Shown here: one piece after another, positions 5,284 through 27,690 of the stretch
Layout of the letters: each line of letters opens with the position of its first letter
Numbering within the stretch: the first letter of the stretch is position 1
DNA from: Anthracocystis setariae
Lineage: Eukaryota; Basidiomycota; Ustilaginomycetes; Ustilaginales; Ustilaginaceae
Direction: 5' to 3'
NCBI GenBank assembly: GCA_928724745.1
Contig: CAKMXJ010000022.1
Location: 186,001 to 250,000, forward strand
DNA: 64,000 bases
Made by a program: the position numbers and the translations under genes
Notes under the pieces: model-generated
Told to the model about the DNA's origin: nothing
Seen by the model: only the letters and a program-made list of their open reading frames with translations
Database searches by the model: none

Positions 5284-5292
5284 CTCCCCCTC
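5284..5292 (-). other. E1 polypurine tract
   Basis: GAGGGGGAG on the coding strand lies directly before the 3' LTR. It corresponds to GAGGGGGAC at the same place in E2 and E3, and would prime plus-strand DNA synthesis. Confidence 0.8.
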
Positions 5293-5355
5293 GACTTGAA
5301 GTCTCGGGGGCAGAACTTTCGATGAAGTGGAAGGAAAGATGATGGAATGAACTAG

Positions 5356-6642: not shown

Positions 6643-7015
6643 TTGAAATGGGGTTTTACTGAAACTTGAAAGGGGGGAAATTCTTGTCGTCCTCGAGAGG
6701 GGACTTTATATCTACAGTGTCGCTGTTGAAGACACTTCTGGTTCCGTCGACTTTGCCAGCAAAAAGTTAAAAAGATGTGGCGAGGTCGATCGTTATTTTG
6801 GGCAGTTTCTCAGTCACTGCGCAATCTTTGTTGAGGGAAAGTGTTGTTTCGTCGTTGGCTGGATGCCAAGATTACTGTGACACTCTTCAACTGCTGTTCG
6901 GGGACCTTCGGGCGAACTCGCCAGCGCCGTTATCAAAAGGGTGGGTTCCTTTTGATATGGTGTTTTCTTTTCGTATTTAGTCGTCTTTTGGCCCCCGTTC
7001 GGTGCGGACGTGTGA
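6643..7015 (-). other. E1 spacer between pol and ORF2
   Basis: This ~370-bp stretch should contain the ORF2 leader or a promoter or splice acceptor. It contains a 15-base identity (6769-6783, AAAAAGATGTGGCGA) with the LTR (5022-5036), followed in both by CTCGA-like sequence. No gene is seen. Confidence 0.55.
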
Positions 7016-10000: not shown

Positions 10001-10950
10001 GAGGTTCTTGAATAATTTATTGTCATTACAAACGTGAATTGAAGAACCTGAATCGAGGATCCAGGAGGGCTTGGCTCCATTCTCGTTGTAGTAGACCTCG
10101 TGTTCGACTTGGTCCGCGACGTCGTCGTCCACATTCAAGTAATAAGTGACCTTTTTGGATTCCTTGTCATCCTTTTTGGTCTCATTGGATTCCTTCTGAG
10201 TCTCTCCTGATTGAGGAGGGAAACGTCTGGGTCCGGATTTCCCTTTGCTTCTGCAAACTCTGGCAACATGGCCGTGTTTGCCGCAGTTGTAGCATTGAGG
10301 TCCCTTTCCTCGTGCAGTTTTCTTTGTCCCATCTTCAGTGAAGTATGAGACTCCATTCGACTTGTTCCTCTGCGTGTTGTGGCCTTTGATGGCCTTTTCT
10401 TGTCGAATTTGCTCTTCCCTGGATCTCAGTTCGTCCAGGGTTCTATCATATTTCGCTTTGAAAGATTCTTTGGGAATCTTGACGTCTATTTCCTTCTCAA
10501 CCCCATCGATATTGATGGTGATTGTCTGTGTTACTTCAGTCTCGAGACCGTTTATGTCATGCTGAAGCAACGCTTTCCAGTGGTTGAACTTAGAGTGCAA
10601 CGACTTTGCTAAGATTCGGAGCCTTTTATTGAAGCTGACTTCGCGCCCGGCCTTCTCAAGTTGGGTCGACAGAGTGAGGATTTTGGTTGCAATCCTATCA
10701 ATGGGATCGTCGTCCCCTTGACGCAGATTGTTGAGCTCGTCCTCAATACGCTCTACTCTGTCGGCCAAGTTCTTTTCGAAGGCCTTCTCGACGTCATCCC
10801 AAATTTGTTTGGCTTCGGTCTTGTCCTTGTAGAGATATGAGAAATCTTCCCCGATGCTAAGACGGAGGGTTCCTAGGGCCAGTCCGTTGGCCTCGATATA
10901 TTTCTCGGTATCTTTCTTGAGGTCCCCTGTGAGATCTCCAGTGATGACAT
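7016..10950 (-). pseudogene. E1 gag-pol polyprotein, main 3' portion (separated from its start by E2)
   Basis: The frame is open from the E2 junction (10950) to the stop at 7016. In coding order it contains the gag C-terminus, a CCHC knuckle (CYNCGKHGHVARVC, about 10294-10252), aspartic protease (ILDSGSS, about 10045), an HHCC and DDE integrase (SDNGGEY then NGVAERMN, spacing D-35-E), RT with YVDD near 8050-8062 and RNase H (FTDSQAA near 7325-7300). Codon phase at 10948 matches the phase of the separated gag start at 19274-19276. The parent frame was therefore intact at about 1359 codons, and the only lesion I see is the E2 insertion. The first internal Met (10768) would give a protein lacking the gag N-terminus. 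Confidence 0.9.
10946..10950. repeat. Left target site duplication of E2 (GACAT)
   Basis: GACAT is repeated at 19274-19278 on the other side of E2. Both copies belong to the E1 gag coding sequence. Confidence 0.92.
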
Positions 10951-11895
10951 TATTAGATTCTAAAAGTCAATCGATGCGAAGTAACTATCGCGGCGTTAGT
11001 TTATCCAATGTTAGATACGACTTACAACACTCGGTAATGGATGTTTGACATCTGATATCTTATTTCCTAAGTTGCGATCTTGGGAGAGTGTCGTGAGTCG
11101 TTAAGTCCGTACTCGAACTATCACAGAGTTTGATGTCTGTGATTTAGTAGTGCTAGGACAATATTGATATTGAACGGGGCGCAGCGGTTAGAAGCTTCGA
11201 AGGATTCGAGCGAGGAAGATCAACATCCAGTATCGGATGTTGGTACTAGTCGTCAGATCTTGTAAGTCGCTAAGTAAGATAGTGATTCGATAATTTCTAT
11301 TCACTCTCTCGGGTTCTGGTCCCGAGTCTTATATACATATGCCTTGACTCTAACTCGTACAGCGAAGGTGTCCCTATCTTCGCTATACATCCCACGCATT
11401 TCCTACAGTGACTATCCTGTCCTCCGTCTGTGTCCCCAACACTCGTTATTGAGTGTCTCCCTTCATCGTGTGGGTCTTTATTCCGCTACTGAGTGTCGTA
11501 CCTCAGTCATGATTGGTTCGGATTTCGTCCGCCCGTCCTTCTCTCCTCTTCCATGCTGGGCAGAGGGTTCCGTTCGGGGTGAGCCGGGTCGTCGTCCTTC
11601 TAATGCGATCCCGCTATTGGATGATAGGTGTGTGCATGTACAACTGAGGTCTATGATTCGTTGAGTAGTCTCAACACTAGGTATCGAATGTTGAGACTTG
11701 TCGACGAACCAATGGGAGTACCGTTGAGTGTCGCGTGGGTACGGGAAGAATGTTTAAATCCGCCCGGCGAACATTGAGACCGGTGTCTCGACATCCGCCG
11801 ACGCGTGTGCAACACTCATTACTGAGTGTTGTGTGCCGATATGTGATGTACCCGATTGCGAGATGAAAAGCTGATTCGTAAAGTCGAATCCAACA
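10951..11895 (-). repeat. E2 3' LTR
   Basis: This 945-bp LTR starts TGTTGGATTCGAC on the coding strand and ends GAATCTAATA. A TATATAA element sits at plus-strand 11329-11335. Five copies of the E2 palindrome are at 11024-11049, 11221-11242, 11438-11457, 11669-11696 and 11810-11831. The short frames seen here are repeated in both LTRs and are not genes. Confidence 0.95.
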
Positions 11896-11904
11896 GTCCC
11901 CCTC
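11896..11904 (-). other. E2 polypurine tract
   Basis: GAGGGGGAC on the coding strand lies directly next to the 3' LTR, identical to the E3 tract. Confidence 0.82.
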
Positions 11905-11969
11905 ATCGAGTACTCACATCACACGGCACAGACATGTACAATAGGATTGGGAACATGAACATTTGGTCG

Positions 11970-13406
11970 CTACTCAGAGTGGTCCTGGTCCAGGTTACTA
12001 CGTCCGGTCTTGCGTCCGACGAGCGCTTCGCGCTCGTCGAACTTCTTGCGAAGAGTTCCGGCGATTCTGATGACATTGGCCGGAGTCCAGAGGCGAGGGA
12101 CGTTCTTCTCGCCTCTCACGTTCCTGTCGCCTTTAATACCGGCCTCTGCTGCCTTGCGCAGTTCCTCCAGTCCTGCTCGAATCTCACCCGCGAGTACCAC
12201 TCGTCGGGTGCGTTTTCCTTCGAATCCAGTCCCTCGACAAATCCTGCCGCTGACAATGCAAGCGTCGCAGGCACCTTTGTCCGTCGCGCGATCCCGGCCC
12301 GTGTGATTGACGCCTGCACCATACGTACAAATGATCCTGCGCATTTCGCAGGGTTTGCATGATGGCTCGGCCACGCGAAAGCCGGGATGCAGGTCGTCGC
12401 CATGCTTGGGGAAGTGCTCGGACGAGCAGCGTACTTCTCCAGCAGGTACAACGAACCTGCGTTGCTTTTCCAGACCGATGTCGGGGTCCATCGGTCCGGA
12501 CCAAGCGAGGTGAGGTGGTAAGGGCCACCTCGCGCATCCGCCAGCGGGCTCGGTTGCCGCGCCGGGAGGGCTTCGACTAGAGGCGCTTGCATCCTCTTCG
12601 TCGTCGTCGTCGATGAGATTACCCTCGTCGTCCTGAGGGTTTCGAAAGAGAGATTGGCTGGGCGGAGGAAGGTCGACCGCAGCCAGGGAAGTGGAGTGAG
12701 AGAGGGAGGTGGCATTCCGAGCCGACCTCAACCTCAGGGCGCTCGTGCTCGGTCGAGCAGAGACAGGCGTCGTAGGAGCCGTGCTTCCGGGAGCGAAGGG
12801 CGGCGAAGATGGTTCGTCCGCCATGCCGCGCCGGGCAGAGGGCGAAGGGGATGCCGTGCTTCTTGAGGCGGACCGCGTTGAAGCCGAGCCACGATTGGCG
12901 GGCGGCGAAGGTGAAGGGGGCGGCACTTGGATGGGAGGTGGAGATGCTGCGCCTGTTGAGGCGGGCAGCGGCGAGGTCGAGCCACGAGTGGCGGACGGCG
13001 AAATCGGCGAGATCGGAAGTAGCTGCTCATCCCCGTGGAAGGCAGGCGAGAGCGAGAGTCTTGCCACACCTGTTGAGGTGGGCGGCGTCGTGGTGGTGGT
13101 GGTGGTCAAGTCTCGAGTGGCGGAGGCCTCGGTGGAGTGGACTGGAGTCATGCCGTCGTCGGCAGAGGACTCGTGAACGTGATCCAGAGCCGTGCTATCG
13201 TTAGCAGGGGGCTCGTCGATGTCCATGGCAGTTGCGCCAGAGGAACCGGTTGGTGGCGCCGAGGTGGCAGTCGCGTCGTCGTTGGCAACGGGGTCGTTGT
13301 TGGCCGTTGTGGCTGTGGTGGTGGTGGCCGACTGGGCTGCGCGCTTCGCAGCGGCAGCCAGTACGGCTTGGCGTTGTGCTTGTCTTTGCTTCTTGGTTAA
13401 TGCCAT
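11970..13406 (-). CDS. E2 ORF2: extra retrotransposon protein with Zn2Cys6-like cluster
   Basis: I chose the Met at 13404-13406 (478 aa) because it aligns with the E3 start (MALTKKQRQAQ versus MGKRLSQAKRD); the frame runs 107 codons further up through Ser/Pro-rich sequence that is probably leader. After the basic start come long Ser/Thr/Pro/Ala-rich stretches and an acidic patch (IDDDDEEDA). A block shared with E3 follows (WSGP, KQRRFVVPAGEV), then six Cys at 350, 353, 360, 380, 383 and 390: C-X2-C-X6-C-X19-C-X2-C-X6-C. This is the fungal Zn2Cys6 spacing except for the long central loop (19 against the usual 5-12). A Glu/Leu-rich helix follows. A role as an element-specific DNA-binding regulator is inferred. 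No known family is recognised with certainty. Confidence 0.74.
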   Translation of the reverse strand: MALTKKQRQAQRQAVLAAAAKRAAQSATTTTATTANNDPVANDDATATSAPPTGSSGATAMDIDEPPANDSTALDHVHESSADDGMTPVHSTEASATRDLTTTTTTTPPTSTGVARLSLSPAFHGDEQLLPISPISPSATRGSTSPLPASTGAASPPPIQVPPPSPSPPANRGSASTRSASRSTASPSPSARRGMADEPSSPPFAPGSTAPTTPVSARPSTSALRLRSARNATSLSHSTSLAAVDLPPPSQSLFRNPQDDEGNLIDDDDEEDASASSRSPPGAATEPAGGCARWPLPPHLAWSGPMDPDIGLEKQRRFVVPAGEVRCSSEHFPKHGDDLHPGFRVAEPSCKPCEMRRIICTYGAGVNHTGRDRATDKGACDACIVSGRICRGTGFEGKRTRRVVLAGEIRAGLEELRKAAEAGIKGDRNVRGEKNVPRLWTPANVIRIAGTLRKKFDEREALVGRKTGRSNLDQDHSE

Positions 13407-13908
13407 CGTGTATGGCGGAGGGAACGAGTGTGGTGGTGGTGAGGAAGGGGGAGAGAGAGAGGGAGGAGAAGAAGGAGAAGAGAGGGAAGGCGAAGGAGCT
13501 GAGTTCAGGATCTCTTTGTCTTCTTCCGCCTTCTCTCTTTGTCTGATTGTTCGGTTCTCCGCAAGTAGGGTCGGTGACATTCCTATAGTGCGTTCTTCAA
13601 GTCTGGCTCGCGTCTTCGAGGGCACTTGAGCGGTGTGAGAGTTTGTAGATGCTGTTCTGCGCAGCCGTTTAATGAAGTCGATGCGCCGCGAGTGCGCAGA
13701 AGATATTCGGTTTCTGGTCACCGACATTCAGTACTGAATGTAGCGGCGGTGTGTGAGCTTCGGGAGGGCCGATAATTGTTTTTGGTTGACCTTTGTGGGT
13801 CCTTTTATCCTTTTCTGATTTTTTGTTTCGCGTTTGAATTTTCCTTGAGGCGTTTCGGCAAGCTGTCAAGTAATGCCGGGTATTTACATAGGCAGGGTCC
13901 AACGTTCA
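13407..13908 (-). promoter_or_regulatory. E2 spacer between pol and ORF2 with palindrome
   Basis: This ~500-bp spacer lies upstream of ORF2. It carries a site at 13723-13742 (ACATTC-N6-GAATGT) and a second overlaps the pol stop (13899-13922). E3 has its own palindromes at both equivalent positions. It may hold an ORF2 promoter or splice site; neither is proved. Confidence 0.5.
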
Positions 13909-15495
13909 TTACTGAGTGTTGGGTTTCGTTGTCGGTTTTTGGCATTCGATCCCGAGTGCGTCCCTGTTGGCCGTAATCTTGTTCTTCTCGAGTGCCTTCG
14001 TCAAGATGTCGGCCAATTGATCATTTGTCGATACTGGTTTCACAGAGAGCACCCCTGATTCCTGGTACTCTCGTGTGATGTGGTACTTGAGCCTGAAATG
14101 CTTGGTTCTGTTATGGAACTTCGGCTCTTTGCTGAGCTCGATTGCTGCTCTGTTGTCTACCATGAGGTCTGTCGGAGTTTTGATTTGCAAGCCGAGTTCA
14201 GACATTACCCATCGAGTCCATATGATCTCCTTACCGGCCTCTGCCATCGCGACGTATTCAGCGTATGTGGTGGAGTCCGTGATGATCGACTGGAGTTTTG
14301 ATACCCAGCTGTACGGCATTGAAGCGACAGTGTTGACAATTCCAGATGTGGATCGCGATGTCTCAGTGTCCCCCGCGTGATCTGCATCGGTGTATGTGCG
14401 CAACCATTTTCCAAAGTCAACATTCGATGTTGAATGTTGGGAATCGAGTATGCGTCTGTACATTAGTCCGTGCGTGTTGGTTCCCTTGAGGTAACGGAGT
14501 AGGTGTTTCGCTTGGACCATGGCATTTGCATGTGGATGTGCAAGTTCTCGGCTGAGCTTTTGGATTGCGAAGGCAATGTCAGGTCTGGTGCAGGTAGCTA
14601 TGTATAGCATCTGGCCGATGATGCTTCTGTACGTGGAGTGTTCTTGTGGGGGGAGCGGCTCTCCTCCTTTGAGGTCGCTACTTGGGTTAAGTGGTGTGTG
14701 GACGATGTTCGCGGATTCTAGGCCGTATGTTGTGAGGAGGCAATTGATGTAACTGGTCTGCGTTAGGTGGATCATCTTCGAAGTTTGGTCGACTTGTATG
14801 CCGAGGATATAATCCAATAGTTCGCCGCCGGTCATCTTGAAATGCTTTCGAAGCTCAGTCATGACACTGGAGGCTGAGTCTTTGTTCTCAGCGAAGATGA
14901 GGATGTCATCAACGTAGAGTGTTAAGATCACGCGACCGGTCTCAGCATTCGATACTGAATGTTTGATATATAGTGCCGAATCGTGTTTACTCCTTGTGAA
15001 TCCCATTCCTCGCAGTGTGGAGTCCGCCTTGTGGTACCAAGTCCGCCCAGCTTGCTTGAGTCCGTAGAGTGACTTATTCAGCTTGCAGACCGATCCATCA
15101 AGTGATCCTCGCGGATACTCTGGTGTTGGCGGTGGCCTCATGTAGAGGTCTTTGTCGATCTCGCCGTTCAGGTATGCGGTCGAGACATCCATTTGGTAAA
15201 TGCTCCATCCAACTTGTAAGCTGATGATCATCAAGAGTCTCAGAGTGGAGATCTTGACTACTGGGGCGAAGGTCTCATCATAGTCGATGCCGTGTTTCTG
15301 GGCGAATCCTTGGGCCACAAGTCTTGCTTTGTACTTATCGATCGATCCATCTGACTTTCTCTTAATCTTGAAGACCCATCGGCTTCCGATGATGTTGGAT
15401 CCAGATGGTGGTTTGGTCATCGTCCATGTGTTGTTGTCTTTGTGCGACAGAAGTTCTTTATCGATTGCTTCTTTCCACAAGTTCCAATCTGGTCT

Positions 15496-15498
15496 TCA
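15496..15498 (-). other. In-frame TGA stop in E2 pol
   Basis: TGA lies between codons for Tyr and Arg at the integrase/RT border; E3 has CGA at the aligned codon. It is most simply a C-to-T transition at a CpG. Confidence 0.9.
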
Positions 15499-17160
15499 AT
15501 ACGCTTGAGCGATTGTGCGAGGTTCATCATCGAGTTGTCCAACTGGATCGGTGGTTTCAACATCCGATACTGAAAGTTCCAACTCGTCGACGACTTCTCG
15601 TACCGCGTTGGCCTGGAGCCTTGGCGATCCCGGCGGTGACCCAGGGGGAGTTGCTATCCCTTGCGCGCGTTCTTCTGGGGTTAGGTAAGGCAAAGTATTG
15701 CGTTCAGGGATTTCGTTGAGGGTTGCGATATCAGTGTTGTTGGTGCGTGTTTCGGTGGGTGAGTCTCCGACATTCAGTACTGGATTGTCGTACTCGTCAC
15801 TGGATGTTGGCAATTTCGCGTCTGATTCGCGAATGCCAGCGAAGGGGAATGATGTCTCGTCGAAGGTGCAGTGAACCTGTGTCAAGTATTGACATTCGTC
15901 TTTATCGTATAGCTTGTAAGCCTTGGTTCCTGGTGTCACACCGAGGTATACGCAGGGCACGGCTCGATTGTCCAAAGTGGTTCGTTTTTCGGCGGGAATA
16001 TGGGCAAATGCTGCACATCCGAAGGTGCGTACCATAGTTAAGTCCGTGGGTCTGCCATATAACGCTTCGTATGGCGTCTTCATGCCGTTTCCTTTCGTTG
16101 GTAATCGATTGTTGAGGTACACAGCATGCAGGAGTGCGTCGCCCCACATTGTGTCTGGGATGCTTGACTGAATCATGATGCAACGCACAATGTTGAAAAG
16201 CGTTCGATTCATTCTCTCCGCGACACCATTCTGCTCGGGAGCGAACGGTGATGTCCGTTCGTGCAGTATGCCGTGTCGGCCAAGGTAGTCTGTCATTTCG
16301 TTACTCGTGTACTCTCCTCCATTATCAGTACGGAGTCGCTTCATCTGGTTGCCAGTTTGCTTCTCCATGACTGTCTTGTATTCTTGCAGGCATCCAAAGA
16401 CTTCACTCTTGCGAGAAATGAGATAAACCATTGTGAATCGAGTGCAATCGTCGATGAATGTGACTGCGTACCGATGGCCTTGTGGAGTCTCATCTGGAAT
16501 CGGACCCTTGACGTCGGAGTGTACAAGCTGAAGTGGGGTGTCAACACTCAGTAATGAACGTTGAAAGGGCAGCTTGGATGATTTACCCACTTCGCAGGTT
16601 TCGCACTTGGTTTGTGACTTTCGCGTGTCGATGGTCATTCCGGGGACTGATTTGGCAATCTCTTCAAGACGTTGTTTTCCTGGATGCCCGAGGCGTTTGT
16701 GCCAGTCGTCAGCCTTGGTGTTGTGATCAGCGGCGAGTCCGGCGAAGTCTATACCGACCTGGTCGACGTATGTGAGTGGTCCAATATGTACACCTCTGCA
16801 GGTAACTCTTCCGCTCCTAGTTTGGGCGATCGTTTGCTTGTCAGTCGTCGTAATTCTGACTTTCCTTCGCATGATTCCTGTTGACAGCAAGTTGACGCTG
16901 AAGGATGGTATGTAGGCGACGTTGGTGAGGGTGATCCTATTGGTTAACCCATTCCCTACGTTGACTTCCATTTCTACAGTACCAAGTCCTTCGATCTTGA
17001 CTGGAACATCGTTTGCAACCCAGATTGGTTTCATTGAGACGCCAATGTGAAGATCCGAGAAGAGATCTTTGTTACAGCAGATGTGCCTGCTCGCACCCGA
17101 GTCCATGAGCCACATCGTCGTTCTTGGATGTGTTGAGTCGGTAATTGAGTACGCGTTCTC

Positions 17161-17244
17161 ATTATTGGGTCCCTGGACTCGGTTCTGAGTGTTTGATCCT
17201 GGATTATTGGATCCCTGGACTCGGTTCTGAATGTTTGACCCTGG
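17161..17244 (-). repeat. 42-bp tandem duplication in E2 gag-pol
   Basis: Units 17161-17202 and 17203-17244 differ at only a few bases and encode a repeated 14-residue unit containing QNRVQG. Each unit contains one half of the E2 palindrome (CTGARTGTTTG). E3 has a palindrome, but no duplication, at the corresponding place. Confidence 0.88.
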
Positions 17245-18316
17245 CCGATCTACCTTTGGGTTATTGCAGTTCCTCGACAAGTGCCCCTTTTGTTGGCAAT
17301 TGTAGCAAGTCATTTGTTCGATAGGGACCCTCTTCTTACTTTTGGACATTGGACGCTGAGTGTTCTTCTTTCCCTTCTTGCTCCCATCATTCGCGTAGTA
17401 TGCCGAGGAGTTGTTCTTGTGTTTGCTTTCCAGTCCATGGTTGTTGAGTCCCAAGCGTAGTTCTTCACTCCTGAGTCTAGTGACGATGGAGTCGAGCTCG
17501 ACTTTCTCGTCGATGGTCTGACTTGCGACAGTGAACATTTCGTTTTCGTTCCCGATCCTGTGTATGATCATCTGTCCTTGCTCTCGGCGAGCTCGGTACG
17601 TTTCTTTGATCTGGGCCGCTATGTTCTCGTATTCCTTCCGTAATCCTTTCATTAGGATACTGTATTTCTTGTGGAAGGTAATAGTGTATCCAGCAAGCAT
17701 GAGGTGATCTGCGAGCTGGTTGATGCGACCGACGAAGCCATCGATGGTTCGTCTGTCTTGTCTTAGGCTGTTGAACTCCGTCTCCATCTCTTCGAGCTGC
17801 CACTTCATGGATTTGGCAAATCGATCCTCGAGTGTTGTCCATATCTGGTGAGCGTCCTCGAGATCATTGATGGTGTGCTTGATGTCGTTCGATAAGCTAC
17901 TTCTGAGCATGCCGCATGCGGTCAGGTTTGCGTTGAGCCAGTCTCCATATGTGATGTCGTCTTCCGATGGTCGGGGTAAAGTCCCTCTGACGATTCCGTA
18001 CACCCGTATTCCCTTTTGCATCAAAACATCGATGCATTTATCTTTCCATGTGTAGTAATCTTTGGCTTGTTCGAGTTTCGGTAGTCGAAGGTGGTTCTGC
18101 GATGCATTCGATTCCGTCATTGCGAACACAGATCCGGGTGTGGGCGGGTTGCGAGGGGTGTTGATATTCGTAGTTACGTTGGCGACACTCAGTAATGAGT
18201 TGTCGAATTCGTTAGTGTCTTGTGTGTCCCTGCTGATAGTTTCAGCGATCGAATCGAGGGGACGTGATCTTGAGCGAGTTCCTCGGTAGGTACCTTCAGA
18301 GTTTCCGTCAGGCGTT

Positions 18317-18328
18317 GGGCTCATAACC
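18317..18328 (-). other. E2 primer binding site (tRNA-iMet half), overlapping gag start
   Basis: GGTTATGAGCCC on the coding strand follows the 5' LTR directly. Its complement GGGCTCATAACC is the anticodon arm of initiator tRNA-Met, as used by copia-type half-tRNA priming. The ATG inside it is the gag start. Confidence 0.85.
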
Positions 18329-19273
18329 TATTAGATTCTAAAAGTCAATCGATGCGAAGTAACTATCGCGGCGTTAGTTTATCCAATGTTAGATACGACT
18401 TACAACACTCGGTAATGGATGTTTGACATCTGATATCTTATTTCCTAAGTTGCGATCTTGGGAGAGTGTCGTGAGTCGTTAAGTCCGTACTCGAACTATC
18501 ACAGAGTTTGATGTCTGTGATTTAGTAGTGCTAGGACAATATCGATATTGAACGGGGCGCAGCGGTTAGAAGCTTCGAAGGATTCGAGCGAGGAAGATCA
18601 ACATCCAGTATCGGATGTTGGTACTAGTCGTCAGATCTTGTAAGTCGCTAAGTAAGATAGTGATTCGATAATTTCTATTCACTCTCTCGGGTTCTGGTCC
18701 CGAGTCTTATATACATATGCCTTGACTCTAACTCGTACAGCAAAGGTGTCCCTATCTTCGCTATACATCCCACGCATTTCCTACAGTGACTATCCTGTCC
18801 TCCGTCTGTGTCCCCAACACTCGTTATTGAGTGTCTCCCTTCATCGTGTGGGTCTTTATTCCGCTACTGAGTGTCGTACCTCAGTCATGATTGGTTCGGA
18901 TTTCGTCCGCCCGTCCTTCTCTCCTCTTCCATGCTGGGCAGAGGGTTCCGTTCGGGGTGAGCCGGGTCGTCGTCCTTCTAATGCGATCCCGCTATTGGAT
19001 GATAGGTGTGTGCATGTACAACTGAGGTCTATGATTCGTTGAGTAGTCTCAACACTAGGTATCGAATGTTGAGACTTGTCGACGAACCAATGGGAGTACC
19101 GTTGAGTGTCGCGTGGGTACGGGAAGAATGTTTAAATCCGCCCGGCGAACATTGAGACCGGTGTCTCGACATCCGCCGACGCGTGTGCAACACTCATTAC
19201 TGAGTGTTGTGTGCCGATATGTGATGTACCCGATTGCGAGATGAAAAGCTGATTCGTAAAGTCGAATCCAACA
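18329..19273 (-). repeat. E2 5' LTR (promoter copy)
   Basis: This 945-bp LTR has a TATA element at plus-strand 18707-18713. Palindromes at about 18816, 19047 and 19188 lie upstream of TATA in U3; those at about 18402 and 18599 lie downstream. The arrangement would suit upstream activating sites bound by a factor. Confidence 0.92.
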
Positions 19274-19423
19274 GACATCCCATGATCGCTTGCCGCGGAT
19301 CATGAGAAGACTGGCCATGTCTTCCCTCCACTGGGGGTAGTCATCGAATTTGTTAAGTTGAGGGTTGTCATTGCATGACATTGTATGAGTATCGTTCGAC
19401 ATGGCGCCAAAGTTTGGGCTCAT
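19274..19423 (-). pseudogene. E1 gag N-terminus, cut off by E2
   Basis: The first 50 codons of E1 gag start at ATG 19421-19423 (MSPNFGAMSND...) and run into the GACAT duplication at 19274-19278. The reading phase continues correctly at 10948, so the fragment and 7016-10950 were one gene. Beyond the junction the frame continues into E2 LTR sequence and is not meaningful. Confidence 0.9.
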
Positions 19424-19427
19424 AACC
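19416..19427 (-). other. E1 primer binding site overlapping gag start
   Basis: GGTTATGAGCCC on the coding strand is identical to E2 and E3 and contains the gag ATG. Confidence 0.85.
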
Positions 19428-19753
19428 TAAAAGAATTAATTATCCTTTTTGTTCGGTGCAGTAGTCGAGTCGAAGTACTCGCACAATTGTCAAAAAGATG
19501 TGGCGACCTCGACGCAGTCTTGAGTATATTCGTGGATGAGGGGACTATTCTACAAGACATGAAGACCTGGGTGGTCATTTATACTGTCGAGGCTACGCTA
19601 TAGGGATACTTTTGTGAGTGAAAAACTGGAATGAAAAACTTTCTCATGTGACGCAACCCAGAAACTGGAATTGCTTCACATGACGCGATTGAAAGTCCGG
19701 CCGACGCTATTGTCGACCGAGAAAGAAAAGTCGGCGTATTGATATTTCTAACA
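19428..19753 (-). repeat. E1 5' LTR
   Basis: This 326-bp LTR matches 4958-5283 with no difference found by eye. TATAAA is at plus-strand 19578-19583. GTCCT follows at 19754-19758. Confidence 0.93.
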
Positions 19754-19761
19754 GTCCTTAA
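19754..19761. repeat. Overlapping target duplications of E1 and E3
   Basis: The eight bases GTCCTTAA contain the right E1 duplication (GTCCT, 19754-19758) and the left E3 duplication (CTTAA, 19757-19761), which share two bases. The two elements therefore entered target sites three bases apart. Confidence 0.9.
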
Positions 19762-20558
19762 TGTGAAATAATAGCAAATGAGAAATGGCGACCTTACGGC
19801 AAAGCCAAGAATAAGTAGTTAATTATGGCTTTTGAGCGCGACTTACGGAAGTAGGCGTCGGGTGATCAATCCCGACGTCGGGTTCTGACAAACTGCGGGT
19901 TTGTTAGAATCCCGGAAGTCTTAGGATATCCGAACGTTATCTTTGTTGTTATTCCAAAGATCCACGTCGGGTTTCGTACGCTCACGTCGTCTTCGCAGAG
20001 GTAGGAAGCTTGAACGATAAATACTATAAGTACTTTGATGACTACTCGACGAGTTGTCGGAGAGAAGGTATGGTAAGAGTAAATTGGGGAAAGATTCGAT
20101 ACATTCCGAAGACACTAAACGAGTCATGACAAAGAGGCGTTTATATACATGTTGAGTCCACGATGATGCTTCCTTGTGTTCGCACTGAACGTTCCTTGAT
20201 GGATGTTATGGTGTCTATAGCGTGGTCCCCTTACTTGGTCGTTGACACCAGTCTTTCGCTGTGGGGTCTACCTTCTGGCCATATTGAGGGGGAATCCGCG
20301 CTTTCTATTCGAGTACGCATCCGGAACATTAAACCCCGACCGCGGGTTTTGAGACGATGTTTCGGACCTCCTGTCTTGAATCGTGTGTCTTGGGAACGTG
20401 TGTGAGTTTCGGTTGGTTTTGTGAATACTCTGTGGTTGTCCAAATCCGGTGAATAAAACGCGAACCCGCATGCGTGTTACAAAACCCGACGGCGGGTTTA
20501 TTGCCGAAGGGTGAAATGCTCCAAGTGTGAGACGACAAATGGAACCCGTGTTCCAACA
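19762..20558 (-). repeat. E3 3' LTR
   Basis: It begins TGTTGGAACACGGG and ends TTATTTCACA on the coding strand. TATATAAA is at plus-strand 20140-20147. Copies of the E3 palindrome lie at 19869-19884, 20333-20348 and 20483-20498, with extra half-sites such as 19961-19973. Confidence 0.95.
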
Positions 20559-20567
20559 GTCCCCCTC
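20559..20567 (-). other. E3 polypurine tract
   Basis: GAGGGGGAC on the coding strand, directly next to the 3' LTR. Confidence 0.82.
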
Positions 20568-20638
20568 GTTGAGCACTTCACACACTTCACGCACGCATTG
20601 ATCATTACTATGGAATGAGATGAAATTTACGTCGGGTC

Positions 20639-21985
20639 TTAAGGACCCGAAGTGCTGGAACTGGTCGCTTGGACGTACCTATTTCGCGGACCGGGTGCTT
20701 CGCGTTTATCGACGAACTCCTCGATTTGGCCCAGGATCTTGATGAAGTACGAGGGATCCCACCTCTTCGGAGGTGGTTTCCCTGTTCGGGAGGCAACGAG
20801 CGTGTCAATACAGATCTCCTTGGCTTCAGTGAGCTTGCCACGGAGACTGTCGACGAGGGCAATCTTTTGTGTTTTCTTGCCCTCGTACCCCAACCCTCGG
20901 CAGGGCTTCGAGATGATCATACAATGATCACAAGACCCGCGGGCGGGGTCTCTCTTCTTGCCTTGGTGGTTAACCCCGGCGCCAAAGGAGCAATGCACTC
21001 CGATGAGACGACACTCCTGGCAGCCGGGTTCGACAATCTTGAGGTCGGGATGGGGTACTTGGTCCAGCGGAGTGAAGTGCCGACGTGAATTCAGCACTAC
21101 TCCGGCTGGAACAACGAAACGCTTCTGTTTCGACGATGGGACTCCAGGTGTTAGCGGTCCCGACCACGCGAGGTGAGAGGGGAGCGGACTTTCTGCTGTT
21201 CCGCCGGCGGGTTGTGCTTCGTCGGCCTCGACGTTGGCTTCGGAAGCTGCAACGGCGGCAGCAGCGGCGCCCACTGTTCGGCGGCGTGGGGGCGAGGAAG
21301 TGGATTCCACGAGCTCGATTGCTCGGGAGGGGTAGATGGTGGTGGTAGCGCGTCCTCGAGTGCGCCGACTCTGTCCCTCGTCCTCGTCGTCGTCGTTACG
21401 GTGGAAGTTAGGGTCTACTTCGTAGTCTCCATCGACGAGGGAATCATCGGAATGAAGGAAGAGGCCCCTTTCTTCCAGCGCGTCGTCGGTCCGAATTGTT
21501 GTGACGGATGGTCTCAGCGCAGGGAGTGGTCTGCTGCGGAGTCGGAGGGAGTGGCCGGCGGTGCTGGGCGCGGTTTGCGAGGGTCGATCGTTACCGTCCT
21601 GATTTCTGACGGTGGTGCTGTCGTTGTCGGCGTCTTGGGGGTCCACGTCTTGAGCAACGGTGGGGGATGATGGAGGTTGTTCGTTGTCAATGTTATCTTG
21701 CGTGTTGTCAATGGCCATGTCATCGTTGACAGAGGGCAAGACGTCAGGAGATGGAGACTCCCGGTTAGTCGGCGGCGGAGGTTGAGCATTATCGAGTTGC
21801 ATTGCCTCGTCTTGACCTTCTTGAAGGGAGGGAGAGGCGGTGACGTCGTCCATGTTAATGTCGACGTTGGCGACGGTTGTGGCGTCACTGTTGTTGGTAT
21901 CGCCTGTGTGAGAGCTCTTCTTGCGCCGGGCCTCGGTGGCCTTGGCTAGAGCATCTCGCTTAGCTTGGGAAAGTCTTTTACCCAT
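20639..21985 (-). CDS. E3 ORF2: extra retrotransposon protein with Zn2Cys6-like cluster
   Basis: The Met at 21983-21985 gives 448 aa and starts MGKRLSQAKRD; the frame extends 90 codons upstream as probable leader. The protein has a basic start, a Thr/Asp/Pro-rich middle with an acidic block (NDDDEDEG), then the block shared with E2 (WSGPLTPG, KQKRFVVPAGVV). Six Cys follow at 322, 325, 332, 352, 355 and 362, spaced C-X2-C-X6-C-X19-C-X2-C-X6-C exactly as in E2, with GAGVNHxG in the long loop. A helical, charged region follows. The element's repeated site AACCCGACGTCGGGTT contains CCG and CGG triplets, the half-site type bound by Gal4-family clusters, which fits a binding role but does not prove it. 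Confidence 0.75.
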   Translation of the reverse strand: MGKRLSQAKRDALAKATEARRKKSSHTGDTNNSDATTVANVDINMDDVTASPSLQEGQDEAMQLDNAQPPPPTNRESPSPDVLPSVNDDMAIDNTQDNIDNEQPPSSPTVAQDVDPQDADNDSTTVRNQDGNDRPSQTAPSTAGHSLRLRSRPLPALRPSVTTIRTDDALEERGLFLHSDDSLVDGDYEVDPNFHRNDDDEDEGQSRRTRGRATTTIYPSRAIELVESTSSPPRRRTVGAAAAAVAASEANVEADEAQPAGGTAESPLPSHLAWSGPLTPGVPSSKQKRFVVPAGVVLNSRRHFTPLDQVPHPDLKIVEPGCQECRLIGVHCSFGAGVNHQGKKRDPARGSCDHCMIISKPCRGLGYEGKKTQKIALVDSLRGKLTEAKEICIDTLVASRTGKPPPKRWDPSYFIKILGQIEEFVDKREAPGPRNRYVQATSSSTSGP

Positions 21986-22582
21986 TGCTTCTTGTTGTAT
22001 GTCGACGTGGTTGGCGTCGGTCGTGATGGTGGTGAAAGAAGTGTGAGGAGGAAGTGTGAGAGAGGGCGTGCTGAGGACTCTTTCTTGGGTCCGCGCCTCT
22101 ATCCCAATCCTTTGTATGGTAACGCTTTGTTCGTTCTGTTCCGCAGTTGGCGCAGCATGTAGTGAGGGCCAGTCGTCGGGTTTTATGATCCGATAGAGAG
22201 TCTTGTCGGATGCGCCGCGTTTCATCTCGGTGGCTGTGATTGCGCAATGTGACATATGAGTGGTTTGCGGTGTTGGTGGTGATTTATTGTGGTTTTGTAG
22301 TTCGAGAGCTAGATCTTGTAGGTTTGGCGTCGGAGTTGAAATCCCGACGTCGGGTTTTGGGGTCTAATGAGAGTTGCTATATCTCGGGTCGCGCGTTCAT
22401 GCAGGGTCCATTTATTTTATGAGCTTTTATTGTTATTTTGCTGTGTTGGTCTCGTTCGGGTAGCTTTCGTGTTGTTTTCTTGATTTTTCGATGTTTTCTG
22501 GTAAAACGCGTCGGGTTGTGGGTGTTCATGTGCGGATCTTGATGATTAATCGATGGAAGGAGAAACCCGTCGTCGGGTTTTC
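21986..22582 (-). promoter_or_regulatory. E3 spacer between pol and ORF2 with two palindromes
   Basis: This ~600-bp spacer carries palindromes at 22341-22356 and, directly after the pol stop, 22564-22579. E2 has its own site type at both places. It is a candidate ORF2 promoter region or acceptor-site region. Confidence 0.5.
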
Positions 22583-25500
22583 CTAATTCGTGGGAAGTAT
22601 GTGGAGATTCTCGCGATTGACTTGAACTTTGTTCTTTTCCAATGCTTTTGTGAGAATGTCAGCTAGTTGGTTCGTTGTTGAGACTGGCTTCACAATCAGT
22701 AATCCCTCTGCTTGGTATGATCGGGTAATGTGATACTTGAGGCGAAAGTGCTTGGTCCTGTTGTGAAACTTGGGTTCCTTGGCGAGTTCGATGGCCGCGC
22801 GGTTATCCACCATAAGTTGCGTCGGGTTCTTGACTTTTAGGCCGAGTTCTTCGACCAGCCATCGGCACCACGTAATTTCCTTCGCTGCTTCGGCCATAGC
22901 TACATATTCTGCGTATGTTGTAGAGTCCGTGATGATGGACTGTAGCTTGGAAATCCAGCTGTATGGCATAGTATTGACCGTGTTGACAATTCCCGACGTT
23001 GATCTCGAAGTTAGTGTGTCCCCCGCGTGATCTGCGTCGGTGAATGTCTGAAATAGCAATCCGAAATCAAGATTCACGTCGTGAATTGGAAACCCGACGG
23101 CGGGTTTATATTCCAGACCGTGGGTTTCTGTTCCCTTGAGGTAACGTAACAAGTGCTTTGCCTGAACCATAGCATTGGAATGCGGGTTTGCAAGTTCGCG
23201 GCTGAGTCTCTGTACAGCGTAACTGATATCAGGTCTCGTGCATGTTGCAATGTAGAGGATTTGGCCGACAATGCTCCTATACTTGGAATGTTCTGATGAG
23301 GAGAGGAGGTCCCCTTCTGCTATGTTGGCACTCGGGTTGAGCGGAGTGTGTACGATGTTGGCAGATTCGAGCCCGTAAGTCAGAAGGAGCCGTCGGATGT
23401 AGCTGGTTTGGGACAAGTGTATGGAGTCCGGCGATTGTTTCACTTGAATGCCTAGGATGTAGTCAAGCTGTTCTCCACCCGTCATCTTGAAGTGCTTCCT
23501 GAGGTCGTTCATTACGGTTTCGGCGAGGGGTTTAGAGCGAGCGAAGATGAGTATGTCATCCACGTAGAGTGTGAGGATGAGCGGGTGAGTCTCGGACCCC
23601 GACGTCGGGTTTTTGATGTAGAGCGCGGAATCGTGGTTACTGCGCTTGAAACCCATTCCCCGCAAAGTTGAGTCTGCTTTCTGGTACCAAGTACGACCAG
23701 CTTGCTTGAGACCGTACAATGACTTGTTTAGCTTGCAAAGTAGACCCGGGGTGTGAGGATCTGCGTCGGGTTCGCGAGGCGGTGGTCGCATGTATATATC
23801 TTTGTCGATTTCACCATTGAGGTAGGCGGTCTCGACATCCATTTGGTAGATAGTCAATCCAATCTGTAGACTTAGTATCATGAGCAGACGGAGTGTCGCA
23901 AGCTTCACGACGGGTGCGAAGGTCTCGTCGTAATCTATGCCGTGTTTTTGTGCGAATCCTTGTGCTACCAAGCGAGCCTTGTACTTGTCAATTGTTCCAT
24001 CGCTTTTTCGCTTGATCTTGAAGACCCATCGACTTCCGATGACGTTTGCGTCCTTCGGGGGGGTCACAAGATTCCAGGTGTTGTTGTTCTTGTGCGACGC
24101 AAGTTCTCTATTTACTGCCTGTTTCCACAATTCCCAGTCGGGTCTTCGGAAAGCCTGAGTGATTGTTCGTGGTTCGTCGTCGAGTAGCCCGATTGGGTCC
24201 GAATCGTCCAATCCCGACGTCGGGTTTTCGACCCCGTCGGTTTCTTCGAGAGCTGCGAGCGCGTCCAGGCGTGGTGAACTTGGTGGCGATCCAGGTGGAG
24301 TCTGGATCCCTGCCGCTCTCTCTTCGGTAGTAAGGTAAGGCCAGCTAGTAAGGTTTTCTCTTGTTTCTTGTCGAAGTTCGGTATTTTGGTCATTTGACTG
24401 AGGGGGAATATTGATTTCCTTCGTCGTTGTGTCAATTCTGGGCGGGTTCGCGAACCCGACGTCGGGTTTTGCAAACCGCACTGAACTTTCGGTATCATAC
24501 GAGAAGGGGAAAGTCCCTTCGTCGAATGTTGCGTGGACCGTCGTAATGTATCGATCTTCGGCTACGTTATATAACTTGAAGGCCTTCGTCCCTGCAGCGA
24601 TGCCGACGTAGACACATGCCAGTGCGCGGGGTTCCAATTTGTCCCTTCTTTCTTCCGGAACGTGTGCCCATGCAGCACATCCGAACGTTCGAGCGAGGGA
24701 GAAGTCAGGTGTAATGGAACGCAACAGTTGGGTCGGGATCTTCATCCCGGCGCCCTTTGTTGGGAATCGGTTATTGAGGTAGACCGCGTGGAGGAAAGCG
24801 TCTCCCCACATATGATACGGTGAGGATGATTGGATCATCATGCAGCGAGCTAGGTCGAACAGGGTGCGATTCATTCGTTCTGCAACCCCGTTCTGTTCTG
24901 GCGTGTATGGAGCGGTGTGTTCGTGGATGATCCCATTTCCCCGAAGTAGCTCTGCAAGTTCTTTACTCGTGTATTTGCCTCCGTTGTCTGACCTGATTCT
25001 TTTGATCGATTGGCCGGTTTGCTTCTCCATCATAGTTTTGTATTCCAGGAAGTGGCCATACACTTCACTCTTCCTCGTGAGTAGGAAAGCGACGGTGAAT
25101 CTTGAGAAATCGTCGATGAATGTGACAGCGTAGCGGTGGCCTTGAGGAGTTTCGTCGGGCATTGGACCCACGACGTCGGTATGTACAAGTTCCAGGGGTT
25201 TTGTGGAACCCGACGTCGGGTTTCGAGAGAACGCCTGTTTGTGCGACTTTCCGATCTGGCATGTCTCACACTTCGCGGGTGTACGTGGGTTGAGAGTCAC
25301 TTGAGGAACGACCTTCGCAATCTCTTCCAGACGTGCTTGACCAGGGTGGCCGAGGCGTTTATGCCAGTTCGTGGTGTTGGCCTCGTGTTCGGCCGCCATT
25401 CCGGCAAAGTCGGTGCCGACTTGGTCGACATACGTGAGGGGTCCAATATGGACACCTTTGCATGTAATTCTGCCGTCTGTCGTTCGGGCGATGGTTTCAC

Positions 25501-26779
25501 GATCGTTTGTAACTATTTCCACCTTCTTCCTCATCACTCCTGTGGAGAGAAGGTTGACGCCGAAGGATGGTATGTAAGCCACGTTCGATAGTGTGATCTT
25601 GTTCGTTTTTCCTTGTCCGATGTTGACTTCGAGGTCCACTGTGCCGAGTCCTTCGATTTTGACCGGAACTTCGTTTGCTACCCAGATGGGTCGCATTGAC
25701 ACGTCGAGTTTGAGATCCCGGAATAGAGTCTTGTTACAACAGATGTGTCGACTGGCACCCGAGTCCATTAGCCACATTGTTGATCGCGGGTGTGTGAACT
25801 CACTGGCGGAGTAGACGTTATCACGCCCGGGTTCACCAGTTTTGGTGTTCGGTTGAGAACCCGACGTCGGGTTCTTGGGTTTCGGGCATTTGTTCGCATA
25901 GTGCCCCTTTTCTTGACAATTGAAGCAAGTGATCTTGTCGATTGGCGTTTTCGGCTTCGTCTTGGGGTTTCGCTTCGGGTTTTGTTGACCCTTCCGTTTG
26001 TTTTCTTGTCCGGCGTAGTATGCCGATGACCCGACCCGGGTTCGCTGATGCATGCCCTGAACGTTGATACCAAGGCGCAATTCCTCGCTTCGCAGGCGAG
26101 TAACGATGTTGTCAAGCTCGACTTTCTCGTTAATGACGGCACTCTCGACAACCAGGGTCTCGATTTCGTTGTCGCCTCTTCGGACGATCATTTCGCTTGT
26201 CTCTCGGCGTGTTCGGTAGGTCTCCTCGATTTGTGCTCGGATGTTATCATATTCCTTGCGGAGACCCTTCATTAGTACGCTGTACTTCTTGTTGAAGCTA
26301 ATTGTAACGCCTGCCATGGTCAGCTGGTCTGACAGTTCGGTAATTCGACTGACGAACCCGTCGATAGTTCGTCTATCCTGCTTGAGACTGTTGAGCTCCG
26401 TCTCCATTTCCTCGAGTTGCCATTTCATGGCTTTAGCGAACCGTTCCTCGAGGGTTTTCCAGATTGTGTGCGCGTCTTCAAGATCCGCAATGGTGTGCTT
26501 GATTTCACTTGAGAGACTGCTTCGTAGCATGCCGCAAGCGGTGAAGTTGGCGTTAATCCACTCTCCGTATTTGGGGTCAGAGGCTTCAGGCCGGGGTAGA
26601 GTCCCCTTGATGATTCCATAGATTCGAGCACCCTTTTGCATAATAATGTCGATGCATTTGTCCTTCCATTGGTAATAGTCGCGTGCCTGTGTCAATTTCG
26701 GCAATCCGGGGGAATTATGCGGGACCCCGTCGATGGATTGCATGATTTCTTCGGTGTATTCGGAACCCGTCGTCGGGTT
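22341..26779. repeat. E3-specific dispersed palindromes (internal set)
   Basis: The consensus AACCCGACGTCGGGTT is a perfect 16-bp palindrome. Copies with 0-2 mismatches: 22341-22356, 22564-22579, 23091-23106, 23596-23611, 24211-24226, 24453-24468, 25207-25222, 25858-25873 and 26764-26779, plus three per LTR. A degenerate copy lies at 26028-26044. The copies on the coding strand encode NPTSG in one frame and KPDVGF or KPAVGF in another. Confidence 0.92.
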
Positions 26780-26890
26780 CGGTAAGTTTCTTTCGTGGTT
26801 TTCGTGTTCTCCGGTGATCGAATCGACTCGAGAGCGGGATCGAGTATTCAAGTATATATCGTTCGAGTTTCCAGCAGGCGTTGGGCTCAT
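22583..26890 (-). CDS. E3 gag-pol polyprotein (copia type), 1435 aa
   Basis: One uninterrupted frame starts at ATG 26888-26890 inside the PBS. Order: gag (PKLTQARDYYQWKDK), CCHC knuckle CFNCQEKGHYANKC (residues 322-335), protease LMDSGASRH (Asp 376), integrase HHCC (WHKRLGHPG ~511) and DDE (HTDVVG, SDNGG, NGVAERMN; D-35-E spacing), RT with YVDDILIF (1109), RNase H and a short tail. Gag and pol share one frame with no slippage site needed, as in several copia lineages. Two otherwise conserved integrase residues are changed relative to E1 and E2 (GGKY for GGEY, HEHTAPY for HERTAPY); neither is catalytic. Palindromes interrupt the protein at unconserved linker points, adding NPTSG-like peptides. 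Confidence 0.95.
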   Translation of the reverse strand: MSPTPAGNSNDIYLNTRSRSRVDSITGEHENHERNLPNPTTGSEYTEEIMQSIDGVPHNSPGLPKLTQARDYYQWKDKCIDIIMQKGARIYGIIKGTLPRPEASDPKYGEWINANFTACGMLRSSLSSEIKHTIADLEDAHTIWKTLEERFAKAMKWQLEEMETELNSLKQDRRTIDGFVSRITELSDQLTMAGVTISFNKKYSVLMKGLRKEYDNIRAQIEETYRTRRETSEMIVRRGDNEIETLVVESAVINEKVELDNIVTRLRSEELRLGINVQGMHQRTRVGSSAYYAGQENKRKGQQNPKRNPKTKPKTPIDKITCFNCQEKGHYANKCPKPKNPTSGSQPNTKTGEPGRDNVYSASEFTHPRSTMWLMDSGASRHICCNKTLFRDLKLDVSMRPIWVANEVPVKIEGLGTVDLEVNIGQGKTNKITLSNVAYIPSFGVNLLSTGVMRKKVEIVTNDRETIARTTDGRITCKGVHIGPLTYVDQVGTDFAGMAAEHEANTTNWHKRLGHPGQARLEEIAKVVPQVTLNPRTPAKCETCQIGKSHKQAFSRNPTSGSTKPLELVHTDVVGPMPDETPQGHRYAVTFIDDFSRFTVAFLLTRKSEVYGHFLEYKTMMEKQTGQSIKRIRSDNGGKYTSKELAELLRGNGIIHEHTAPYTPEQNGVAERMNRTLFDLARCMMIQSSSPYHMWGDAFLHAVYLNNRFPTKGAGMKIPTQLLRSITPDFSLARTFGCAAWAHVPEERRDKLEPRALACVYVGIAAGTKAFKLYNVAEDRYITTVHATFDEGTFPFSYDTESSVRFAKPDVGFANPPRIDTTTKEINIPPQSNDQNTELRQETRENLTSWPYLTTEERAAGIQTPPGSPPSSPRLDALAALEETDGVENPTSGLDDSDPIGLLDDEPRTITQAFRRPDWELWKQAVNRELASHKNNNTWNLVTPPKDANVIGSRWVFKIKRKSDGTIDKYKARLVAQGFAQKHGIDYDETFAPVVKLATLRLLMILSLQIGLTIYQMDVETAYLNGEIDKDIYMRPPPREPDADPHTPGLLCKLNKSLYGLKQAGRTWYQKADSTLRGMGFKRSNHDSALYIKNPTSGSETHPLILTLYVDDILIFARSKPLAETVMNDLRKHFKMTGGEQLDYILGIQVKQSPDSIHLSQTSYIRRLLLTYGLESANIVHTPLNPSANIAEGDLLSSSEHSKYRSIVGQILYIATCTRPDISYAVQRLSRELANPHSNAMVQAKHLLRYLKGTETHGLEYKPAVGFPIHDVNLDFGLLFQTFTDADHAGDTLTSRSTSGIVNTVNTMPYSWISKLQSIITDSTTYAEYVAMAEAAKEITWCRWLVEELGLKVKNPTQLMVDNRAAIELAKEPKFHNRTKHFRLKYHITRSYQAEGLLIVKPVSTTNQLADILTKALEKNKVQVNRENLHILPTN

Positions 26891-26894: not shown

Positions 26895-27690
26895 TGTGAA
26901 ATAATAGCAAATGAGAAATGGCGACCTTACGGCAAAGCCAAGAATAAGTAGTTAATTATGGCTTTTGAGCGCGACTTACGGAAGTAGGCGTCGGGTGATC
27001 AATCCCGACGTCGGGTTCTGACAAACTGCGGGTTTGTTAGAATCCCGGAAGTCTTAGGATATCCGAACGTTATCTTTGTTGTTATTCAAAGATCCACGTC
27101 GGGTTTCGTACGCTCACGTCGTCTTCGCAGAGGTAGGAAGCTTGAACGATAAATACTATAAGTACTTTGATGACTACTCGACGAGTTGTCGGAGAGAAGG
27201 TATGGTAAGAGTAAATTGGGGAAAGATTCGATACATTCCAAAGACACTAAACGAGTCATGACAAAGAGGCGTTTATATACATGTTGAGTCCACGATGATG
27301 CTTCCTTGTGTTCGCACTGAACGTTCCTTGATGGATGTTATGGTGTCTATAGCGTGGTCCCCTTACTTGGTCGTTGACACCAGTCTTTCGCTGTGGGGTC
27401 TACCTTCTGGCCATATTGAGGGGGAATCCGCGCTTTCTATTCGAGTACGCATCCGGAACATTAAACCCCGACCGCGGGTTTTGAGACGATGTTTCGGACC
27501 TCCTGTCTTGAATCGTGTGTCTTGGGAACGTGTGTGAGTTTCGGTTGGTTTTGTGAATACTCTGTGGTTGTCCAAATCCGGTGAATAAAACGCGAACCCG
27601 CATGCGTGTTACAAAACCCGACGGCGGGTTTATTGCCGAAGGGTGAAATGCTCCAAGTGTGAGACGACAAATGGAACCCGTGTTCCAACA
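26895..27690 (-). repeat. E3 5' LTR (promoter copy)
   Basis: This 796-bp LTR has TATATAAA at plus-strand 27272-27279. Palindromes at 27465-27480 and 27615-27630 lie about 190 and 340 bp upstream of TATA; one at 27002-27017 lies in the leader side. Confidence 0.93.

Follow-up and report, generated by a model that had tools for sequence, protein, structure and literature searches.

Background

Two related retrotransposons in one stretch of fungal DNA carry different short palindromes at corresponding places, and the question raised by this locus is how such sites might have been rewritten where they stand. The stretch (hereafter the window) comprises 64,000 nucleotides of Anthracocystis setariae contig CAKMXJ010000022.1 (G000:C21:186001-250000, in a genome of 21.5 Mb in 36 contigs). 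It contains the copia elements E2 and E3, both on the minus strand, and a third copia element, E1, which hosts E2 as an insertion. The palindrome of E2, approximately CAACAYTCAGTACTGARTGTTG, recurs as loose 22-mers; that of E3, AACCCGACGTCGGGTT, recurs as tight 16-mers. An earlier note on this DNA had paired nine sites of E2 with nine of E3 and attributed them to co-evolution of a DNA-binding protein with its dispersed sites, and all nine pairs are present at the positions it gave. Among the copia families of this one genome, which define the scope of our motif survey, each motif-bearing family has its own site, nearly private to that family, and each encodes an open reading frame, ORF2, with six cysteines spaced as in the fungal Zn(II)2Cys6 DNA-binding domain. 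Judged from sequence, ORF2 dimers probably bind the palindromes of their own family, and the use of this binding would be self-activation or anti-silencing of integrated copies.

Results and discussion

Palindromes dispersed through copia elements

Of the even-centred 18-mers in the 64 kb window, 17 pair at eight or more of nine positions; three lie in E2, 11 in E3 (one being an overlapping shift), none in E1 and three in the rest of the window. At looser limits (at most 7 mismatches in 22 for E2, at most 4 in 16 for E3), the totals are 15 sites in E2, with one long terminal repeat (LTR) counted, and 14 in E3. In window coordinates, the sites and the coding regions and repeats that hold them are:

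13722-13743, 13900-13921, 14418-14439, 14943-14964, 15558-15579, 15768-15789, 16542-16563, 18183-18204: E2 internal palindromes
17173-17194, 17215-17236: E2 zinc-knuckle palindromes, both weak (6 to 7 mismatches)
18403-18424, 18599-18620, 18815-18836, 19050-19071, 19188-19209: E2 palindromes, 5' LTR
11025-11046, 11221-11242, 11437-11458, 11672-11693, 11810-11831: E2 palindromes, 3' LTR (5 sites)
22167-22182 (partial), 22341-22356, 22564-22579, 23091-23106, 23596-23611, 24211-24226, 24453-24468, 25207-25222, 25858-25873, 26764-26779: E3 internal palindromes
27002-27017, 27090-27105 (partial), 27465-27480, 27615-27630: E3 palindromes, 5' LTR
19869-19884, 19958-19973 (partial), 20333-20348, 20483-20498: E3 palindromes, 3' LTR (4 sites)
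13909..18324, minus strand: E2 gag-pol region, two open frames in the window copy (15496-18324 and 13909-15480)
22583..26890, minus strand: E3 gag-pol, 1435 amino acids (aa)
26895..27690, minus strand: E3 5' LTR
19762-20558: E3 3' LTR

The pol frame of E2 is split at 15480-15496, and several other E2 copies have one 1472-aa frame. E1 (4958-19727) has its gag region split by the E2 insertion. Almost none of the palindromes found throughout the remainder of E2 and E3 fall within the ORF2 genes (11970-13727 and 20639-22255).

Searching the genome with Pfam RVT_2 gave 81 reverse transcriptase (RT) matches, 30 of which were clustered together with E1, E2, E3 and a single member from each of two additional groups; one or two stretches per copia group served as representatives in the motif work. 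E2, E3, E4a and E4b form one clade, with RT identities between groups of 72 to 87%. F744 is 61 to 62% identical to this clade, and A, E1 and F723 are more distant (43 to 52%). The third group of the clade, E4, has the palindrome AACACGCAACGTTGCGTGTT, and dispersed palindromes are likewise found in F744 (approximately CTTACCGACGTCGGTAAG) and in family A (approximately TGCGCAnnTGCGCA). Across the 5' LTR, gag-pol and the pol-ORF2 spacer, mean site spacing is 300 to 420 bp in E2, E3 and E4b.

De novo counting of 12-mers found repeated words in all eight elements tried, that of E1 being low-complexity. Each coding region was compared with 40 synonymous-codon shuffles of itself, and the best 12-mer exceeded every shuffle in six elements: a second E2 copy used in the codon and protein alignments, L051 (10 occurrences, null maximum 8), E3 (12, 8), E4a (10, 6), E4b (13, 8), F744 (11, 6) and A (21, 12). 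A shuffled-codon model was one of the tests by which the earlier note would have let its proposal fall; in this comparison the repeated words of E2 and E3 both exceed the shuffles. The motif of F723 is marginal (8 with a null maximum of 8 in the coding region; 10 versus 8 in 10 shuffles of the whole element). Six other long frames of the window, taken as controls, had best counts of 4 to 8, and two of them slightly exceeded their 20 shuffles (7 versus 6; 8 versus 7); the F723 motif is therefore not claimed. No dispersed motif was found in E1, whose best coding word occurs 6 times against a null maximum of 7 in 40 shuffles and whose best whole-element word (8 versus 7) is a GAC-rich run. Counts of coding 16-mer palindromes exceeded all 100 shuffles in L051, E3, E4b and A, and did not do so in E4a and F744. 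Chance palindromes are ruled out by the 18-mer pairing counts, the synonymous shuffles and the scans with LTR-derived models described below.

A candidate binding protein

ORF2 is encoded between pol and the 3' LTR. Zn(II)2Cys6 domains are defined by six cysteines arranged as CX2CX6CXnCX2CX6C; many fungal regulators of this type bind inverted repeats as dimers, and their middle loop is usually shorter than most of the loops of ORF2. In all eight aligned ORF2 domains (two E2 copies, E3, E4a, E4b, F744, A and F723) the six cysteines are invariant, as CX2CX6CX10-19CX2CX6C, so that n is 10 to 19 residues. The ORF2 genes of the window are:

11970..13727, minus strand: E2 ORF2, 585 aa, six-cysteine domain coded at about 12189-12383
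20639..22255, minus strand: E3 ORF2, 538 aa, six-cysteine domain coded at about 20852-21046
5356-6642, minus strand: E1 ORF2

Spacing is altered in the ORF2 of E1 (CX2CX11CX10CX2CX6C), an element without a dispersed motif. In an E4a copy (L046, 6456-7391) the frame stops just past the six-cysteine domain, at 311 aa, and in E4b it has 417 aa. One copy of family A (L050) runs from pol almost directly into the 3' LTR, without ORF2; another (L053) has an ORF2 of 238 aa, the sole family A ORF2 match found in the genome.

Profile searches of PDB gave best E values of 0.0076 for LAC9, 0.011 for AlcR and 0.22 for GAL4, and the AlcR alignment runs through all six cysteines. In a template-free model of the domain, a helix follows each CxxC. 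The 182-residue C-terminal part of ORF2 had no informative fold match. Between E2, E3 and E4, ORF2 is 38 to 52% identical in its C-terminal part, as against 72 to 82% for RT. None of 496 candidate protein relatives of the E3 ORF2 domain reached E 0.01 or better. A separate search for relatives in IMG/VR gave one stretch that matched a pattern, and none was confirmed. Searched against the genome, the E3 domain matched 61 places, including members of the E3, E2, E4 and F744 groups, five of them with stop codons; 51 of the 61 have a copia RT match 1.2 to 5.0 kb upstream. One weak match stands alone at G000:C20:160138-160320 (35%, E 3.3e-5), lacking any copia RT match in the 5.5 kb upstream of it, and might represent another family or a host gene.

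The observed sites, their places, their privacy to families and the cysteine pattern of ORF2 lead us to infer dimer binding by this predicted binder and an effect of that binding. In the proposed mechanism, several copia families of this genome encode a Zn(II)2Cys6-like DNA-binding ORF2 between pol and the 3' LTR, which most likely binds as a dimer to the palindrome of its own family. Sites and protein would have changed together by descent, the places being kept and both half-sites moving in step, and relatives would largely have ceased to share a site. The dimers would most likely occupy sites throughout the integrated copy and maintain its activity, by self-specific activation or by anti-silencing as with the VANC proteins of VANDAL transposons.

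The same protein could instead bind its sites on newly made complementary DNA (cDNA), where it would compact, protect, import or sort the cDNA or particle of its own element, privacy barring its use by relatives. The spread of sites along most of the element, beyond the LTR, is more than a promoter-only regulator would need, and so favours such a role; however, LTR sites are kept as well, and nothing points to a particle or import function. The anatomy is the same for cDNA as for integrated copies, and sequence cannot separate the two. We consider the cDNA role unlikely, albeit the foremost of the alternatives.

Different sites at matching places

Coding sites number seven each in L051 and E3 and at least nine in E4a and E4b. 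Their columns in the protein alignment are:

L051: 69, 498, 781, 1080, 1150, 1362, 1539
E3: 106, 483, 781, 1043, 1150, 1362, 1533
E4b, at most 5 mismatches: 109, 488, 781, 904, 1039, 1150, 1362, 1539 (at 6 mismatches also 421, 1200)

The earlier note held that the sites of E2 and E3 occupy the same relative positions. As a statement about neighbourhoods this is borne out, all seven coding sites of L051 and E3 lying within 40 columns of one another (null mean 1.77), five within 15 and four within 6 (p 5e-5 to 1.5e-4 over these limits and the exact columns; 5e-5 both for exact columns and for all seven). As a statement about exact columns it applies to three of seven (null mean 0.03), namely the pre-integrase, pre-RT and RT-linker sites; offsets are 6 columns at the ribonuclease H (RNase H) site, 15 at the zinc-knuckle site and 37 at each of the gag and post-integrase sites, these last in gappy stretches of the alignment. 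Exact columns are also shared by L051 and E4b (4 of 7), E3 and E4b (3), L051 and E4a (3), and E3 and E4a (2), and all seven sites in the comparison of E3 with E4b fall within 6 columns (null 0.45). Pol-stop sites recur at -9, +7, +2 and +2 relative to the end of the coding region, and sites in the pol-ORF2 spacer recur across elements as well.

The correspondence extends to the LTRs, in which E2, E3 and E4 otherwise have only short matches in common. The offsets compared were:

E2: 71/209/444/660/856 (about 8 too high, from a loose LTR start; L051 gives 63/201/436/653/849)
E4a: 61/213/432/642/837
E4b: 61/222/433/642/789
E3: 60/210/585/673

All five offsets agree within 25 bp between E2 and E4a (p 1e-4), four of five match between E2 and E4b (p 0.0036), and three of five agree within 15 bp between E2 and E3 (p 0.0055).

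The sites themselves are not wholly foreign to one another. Anchored at their centres, the half-sites of E2 and E4 agree at 7 of 10 positions, as do those of E3 and E4 (chance 0.0035 each); agreement is 5 of 10 for E2/E3, 5 for E3/F744, 3 for E4/F744 and 1 for E2/F744. The palindromes of E2 and E3 do differ, as the earlier note said, but with half-site agreement of 7/10 to E4 on either side, its word 'unrelated' is too strong. The half-sites of E2, E3 and E4 would fit stepwise change of a single ancestral site, both arms moving together.

Matching places might also arise by convergence, if sites fit only in change-tolerant linkers and families therefore reuse the same linkers independently. 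The linkers of outgroup families at the pre-integrase place are indeed variable and similar in length, and the residues coded by the sites are those that differ most between families. Against this, the LTR offsets, which are free of protein constraint, match too for E2/E4a, E2/E4b and E2/E3 (though not for E3/E4), the half-sites agree to the extent just given, and the pol-stop and spacer sites recur. Independent reuse is doubtful, slightly more so than a cDNA role, but confinement to tolerant linkers may account for part of the positional coincidence.

Conservation as DNA

The E4 sites occur in reading phases 0, 1 and 2, those of E3 in phases 0 and 1, and six of the seven in L051 in phase 0; the same motif in different phases codes for different peptides. 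At four sites shared by E2, E3 and E4b, amino-acid identity is 4/27 (E2/E3), 9/27 (E2/E4b) and 7/27 (E3/E4b), or 15 to 33%, as against 68 to 71% in their flanks, which upholds the observation that the site is replaced where the flanking protein is kept. Near RT, 12 of 12 copies contain six of the seven E2 sites, the exception being the pre-RT site, which is in five at the mismatch limit; for E4, six sites are present in 8 of 8 copies and the other places in fewer. Among copies of the E3-family LTR, sites are 0.91 to 0.95 identical and flanks 0.74 to 0.83.

The palindromes might instead be hairpins in the genomic RNA, serving packaging, dimerisation or translation, and to some extent the data lean that way: the sequence of the E3 site would allow a short stem closed by a 4-base loop, one orientation prevails in E3 (12 of 15) and E4 (15 of 18 in E4b, 14 of 18 in E4a), which is unexpected for a plain palindrome, and the arms of E4b pair more than expected (p 0.015). 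Yet in four of the five elements the arms change independently of each other (p 0.18 to 1.0), and among sense-strand mismatches G-U is not in excess of A-C in E2 (10 versus 19), L051 (7 versus 14) or E4a (6 versus 9); E4b has 6 versus 3, and E3 has neither kind. The orientation lean may be caused by coding limits and the common descent of the sites, and we regard RNA hairpins as improbable.

Sites nearly private to families

Iterated palindromic models counted 15 sites in E2, 15 in E3, 18 in E4b, 18 in E4a, 19 in F744, 11 in A and 4 in F723, numbers that are partly circular, the models having been refined on the same element. An independent test used models from LTR sites alone, with a threshold passed by 5% of 200 synonymous shuffles. 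These models found coding sites in their own elements (4 in E2, 7 in E3, 5 in E4b and 1 in E4a) and few elsewhere: the E4b model had 2 hits in E4a and 1 in E2, the E4a model 1 in E4b and 1 in E2, the E2 model 2 in E4b and the E3 model 1 in F744, with no match in the other 22 of 28 foreign comparisons. A genome-wide check, made for the E3 site, found 57 exact sites, and all 50 of those listed lie within E3-family DNA. The wider family comparison that the earlier note had called for thus supports it within this genome as regards E4, which uses the same columns with its own palindrome, and F744 and A, which have palindromes of their own; F723, with its marginal motif, and E1, with none, do not join them.

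Host transcription factors or silencing proteins are quite as improbable as hairpins in the role of binder for, abundant as host proteins of the class are (78 Zn_clus matches in the genome), the E3 sites checked genome-wide keep, as far as listed, to E3-family DNA, and each family would require a different host protein.

Proposed co-evolution of sites and protein

Co-evolution of the dispersed sites with a DNA-binding protein is the best fit, and is partly supported, because the sites are nearly private, their residues are replaced where flanks are kept, they occur in different phases, their arms vary independently in four of five elements, and the six-cysteine ORF2 diverges fast. Of the two partners in the earlier proposal, the sites are seen directly; for ORF2, binding is what we infer.

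Several results weigh against this reading. Pfam Zn_clus stays below its curated cut-off in every ORF2 where it is present (best 13.6 bits versus 21) and is absent in the others; eL37 ribosomal proteins (best E 0.021) score like zinc-cluster proteins and top one of the profile searches, and the ORF2 of family A alone leads to GATA-3 at E 1.2. The first Foldseek match of the template-free model, the PPR1-DNA complex 1pyi, has a weak score (E 1.8), and VIA-align gave nothing. F723 has the cysteine pattern and only a marginal motif. ORF2 is nearly site-free in E2, E3 and E4, for which binding along the integrated copy offers no explanation. The LTR offsets of E3 and E4 do not match significantly (p 0.09 to 0.25). 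Greater conservation of sites than of flanks, a check suggested by the earlier note, holds for the E3-family LTRs but not between whole stretches of two E2 copies (0.936 versus 0.942), and the contrast is small between E4a and E4b (0.859 versus 0.834). An excess of identical codons inside sites, as expected of synonymous constraint, is not significant (p 0.09 to 1.0), with the same direction in three of four pairs. The orientation lean and the arm pairing of E4b belong here too.

The sites and their candidate binder together suggest that families mark and recognise their own DNA. The fullest form of this idea, to which we give about an even chance, is a private self-recognition code: the zinc-cluster ORF2 of each family would be paired with its own palindrome, and the pair would have changed several times where it stands. 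Both arms and at least a dozen dispersed sites would have been altered together, coding DNA included, leaving related families unable to assist or to interfere with one another. If true, LTR retrotransposons would join VANDAL DNA transposons in having sequence-specific self-recognition, here with sites embedded in coding DNA, and this could explain the independence of related elements within one genome. Five natural protein-site pairs (E2, E3, E4, F744 and A), three of them close relatives, would then allow a direct test of how a DNA-binding domain and its many sites evolve jointly.

Comparison with known systems

A literature survey, mainly of titles and abstract openings for part of the matching papers and with subscription papers mostly outside it, yielded no account of family-specific palindromes through copia coding DNA with a DNA-binding protein of the element's own. 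In passages from a study of smut LTR elements (PMC9603552), 'motif' and 'palindrom' have 0 occurrences; extra open reading frames in plant LTR elements are the subject of PMC7264820.

The fungal Zn(II)2Cys6 regulators AlcR, LAC9, GAL4 and PPR1 have the same CX2CX6C...CX2CX6C spacing as ORF2, which differs from them in falling below the Pfam cut-off and in being encoded by a retrotransposon.

The repeated motifs (RM) of plant copia elements of the Sirevirus type number 8 to 32 copies and are placed in LTRs and close to an extra gene (PMC2829016). They resemble the present sites in belonging to copia elements and in being palindromic repeats with dyad symmetry whose versions differ between elements; LTR sites are present in E2, E3, E4a and E4b alike. 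Most RMs have a CGG-CCG core, where E3 and F744 have CCG..CGG. RMs are found in the LTR and, for the most part, upstream of the env-like gene, whereas here the sites are spread through gag-pol at matching places, and the section of that paper on RMs names no element-encoded binder (PMC2829016).

VANDAL DNA transposons encode VANC anti-silencing proteins, with DUF1985/DUF287 domains and proven binding (PMC5735166; VANC and VANDAL are also treated in PMC10398659). From what these sources describe, the likeness lies in an element-encoded protein with short family-specific motifs over its own element, in different motifs among related families, and in fast change of protein and motif both. The motifs studied here are likewise repeated in their own element and rare elsewhere, by the cross-family scan and the genome-wide check of E3. 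Pfam matched neither DUF1985 nor DUF287 in seven ORF2 proteins or in the family A ORF2. VANDAL motifs are arrayed in non-coding DNA, whereas E2, E3 and E4 have single dispersed palindromes at matching places, many in coding DNA, in LTR retrotransposons whose predicted binder has a six-cysteine domain. The analogy with VANC that the earlier note drew thus holds in its logic and parts from it in protein domain and motif layout. Neither system, as far as these texts describe them, has single palindromes at matching gag-pol places; VANC is the nearest working system, and the Sirevirus repeats are the nearest DNA feature.
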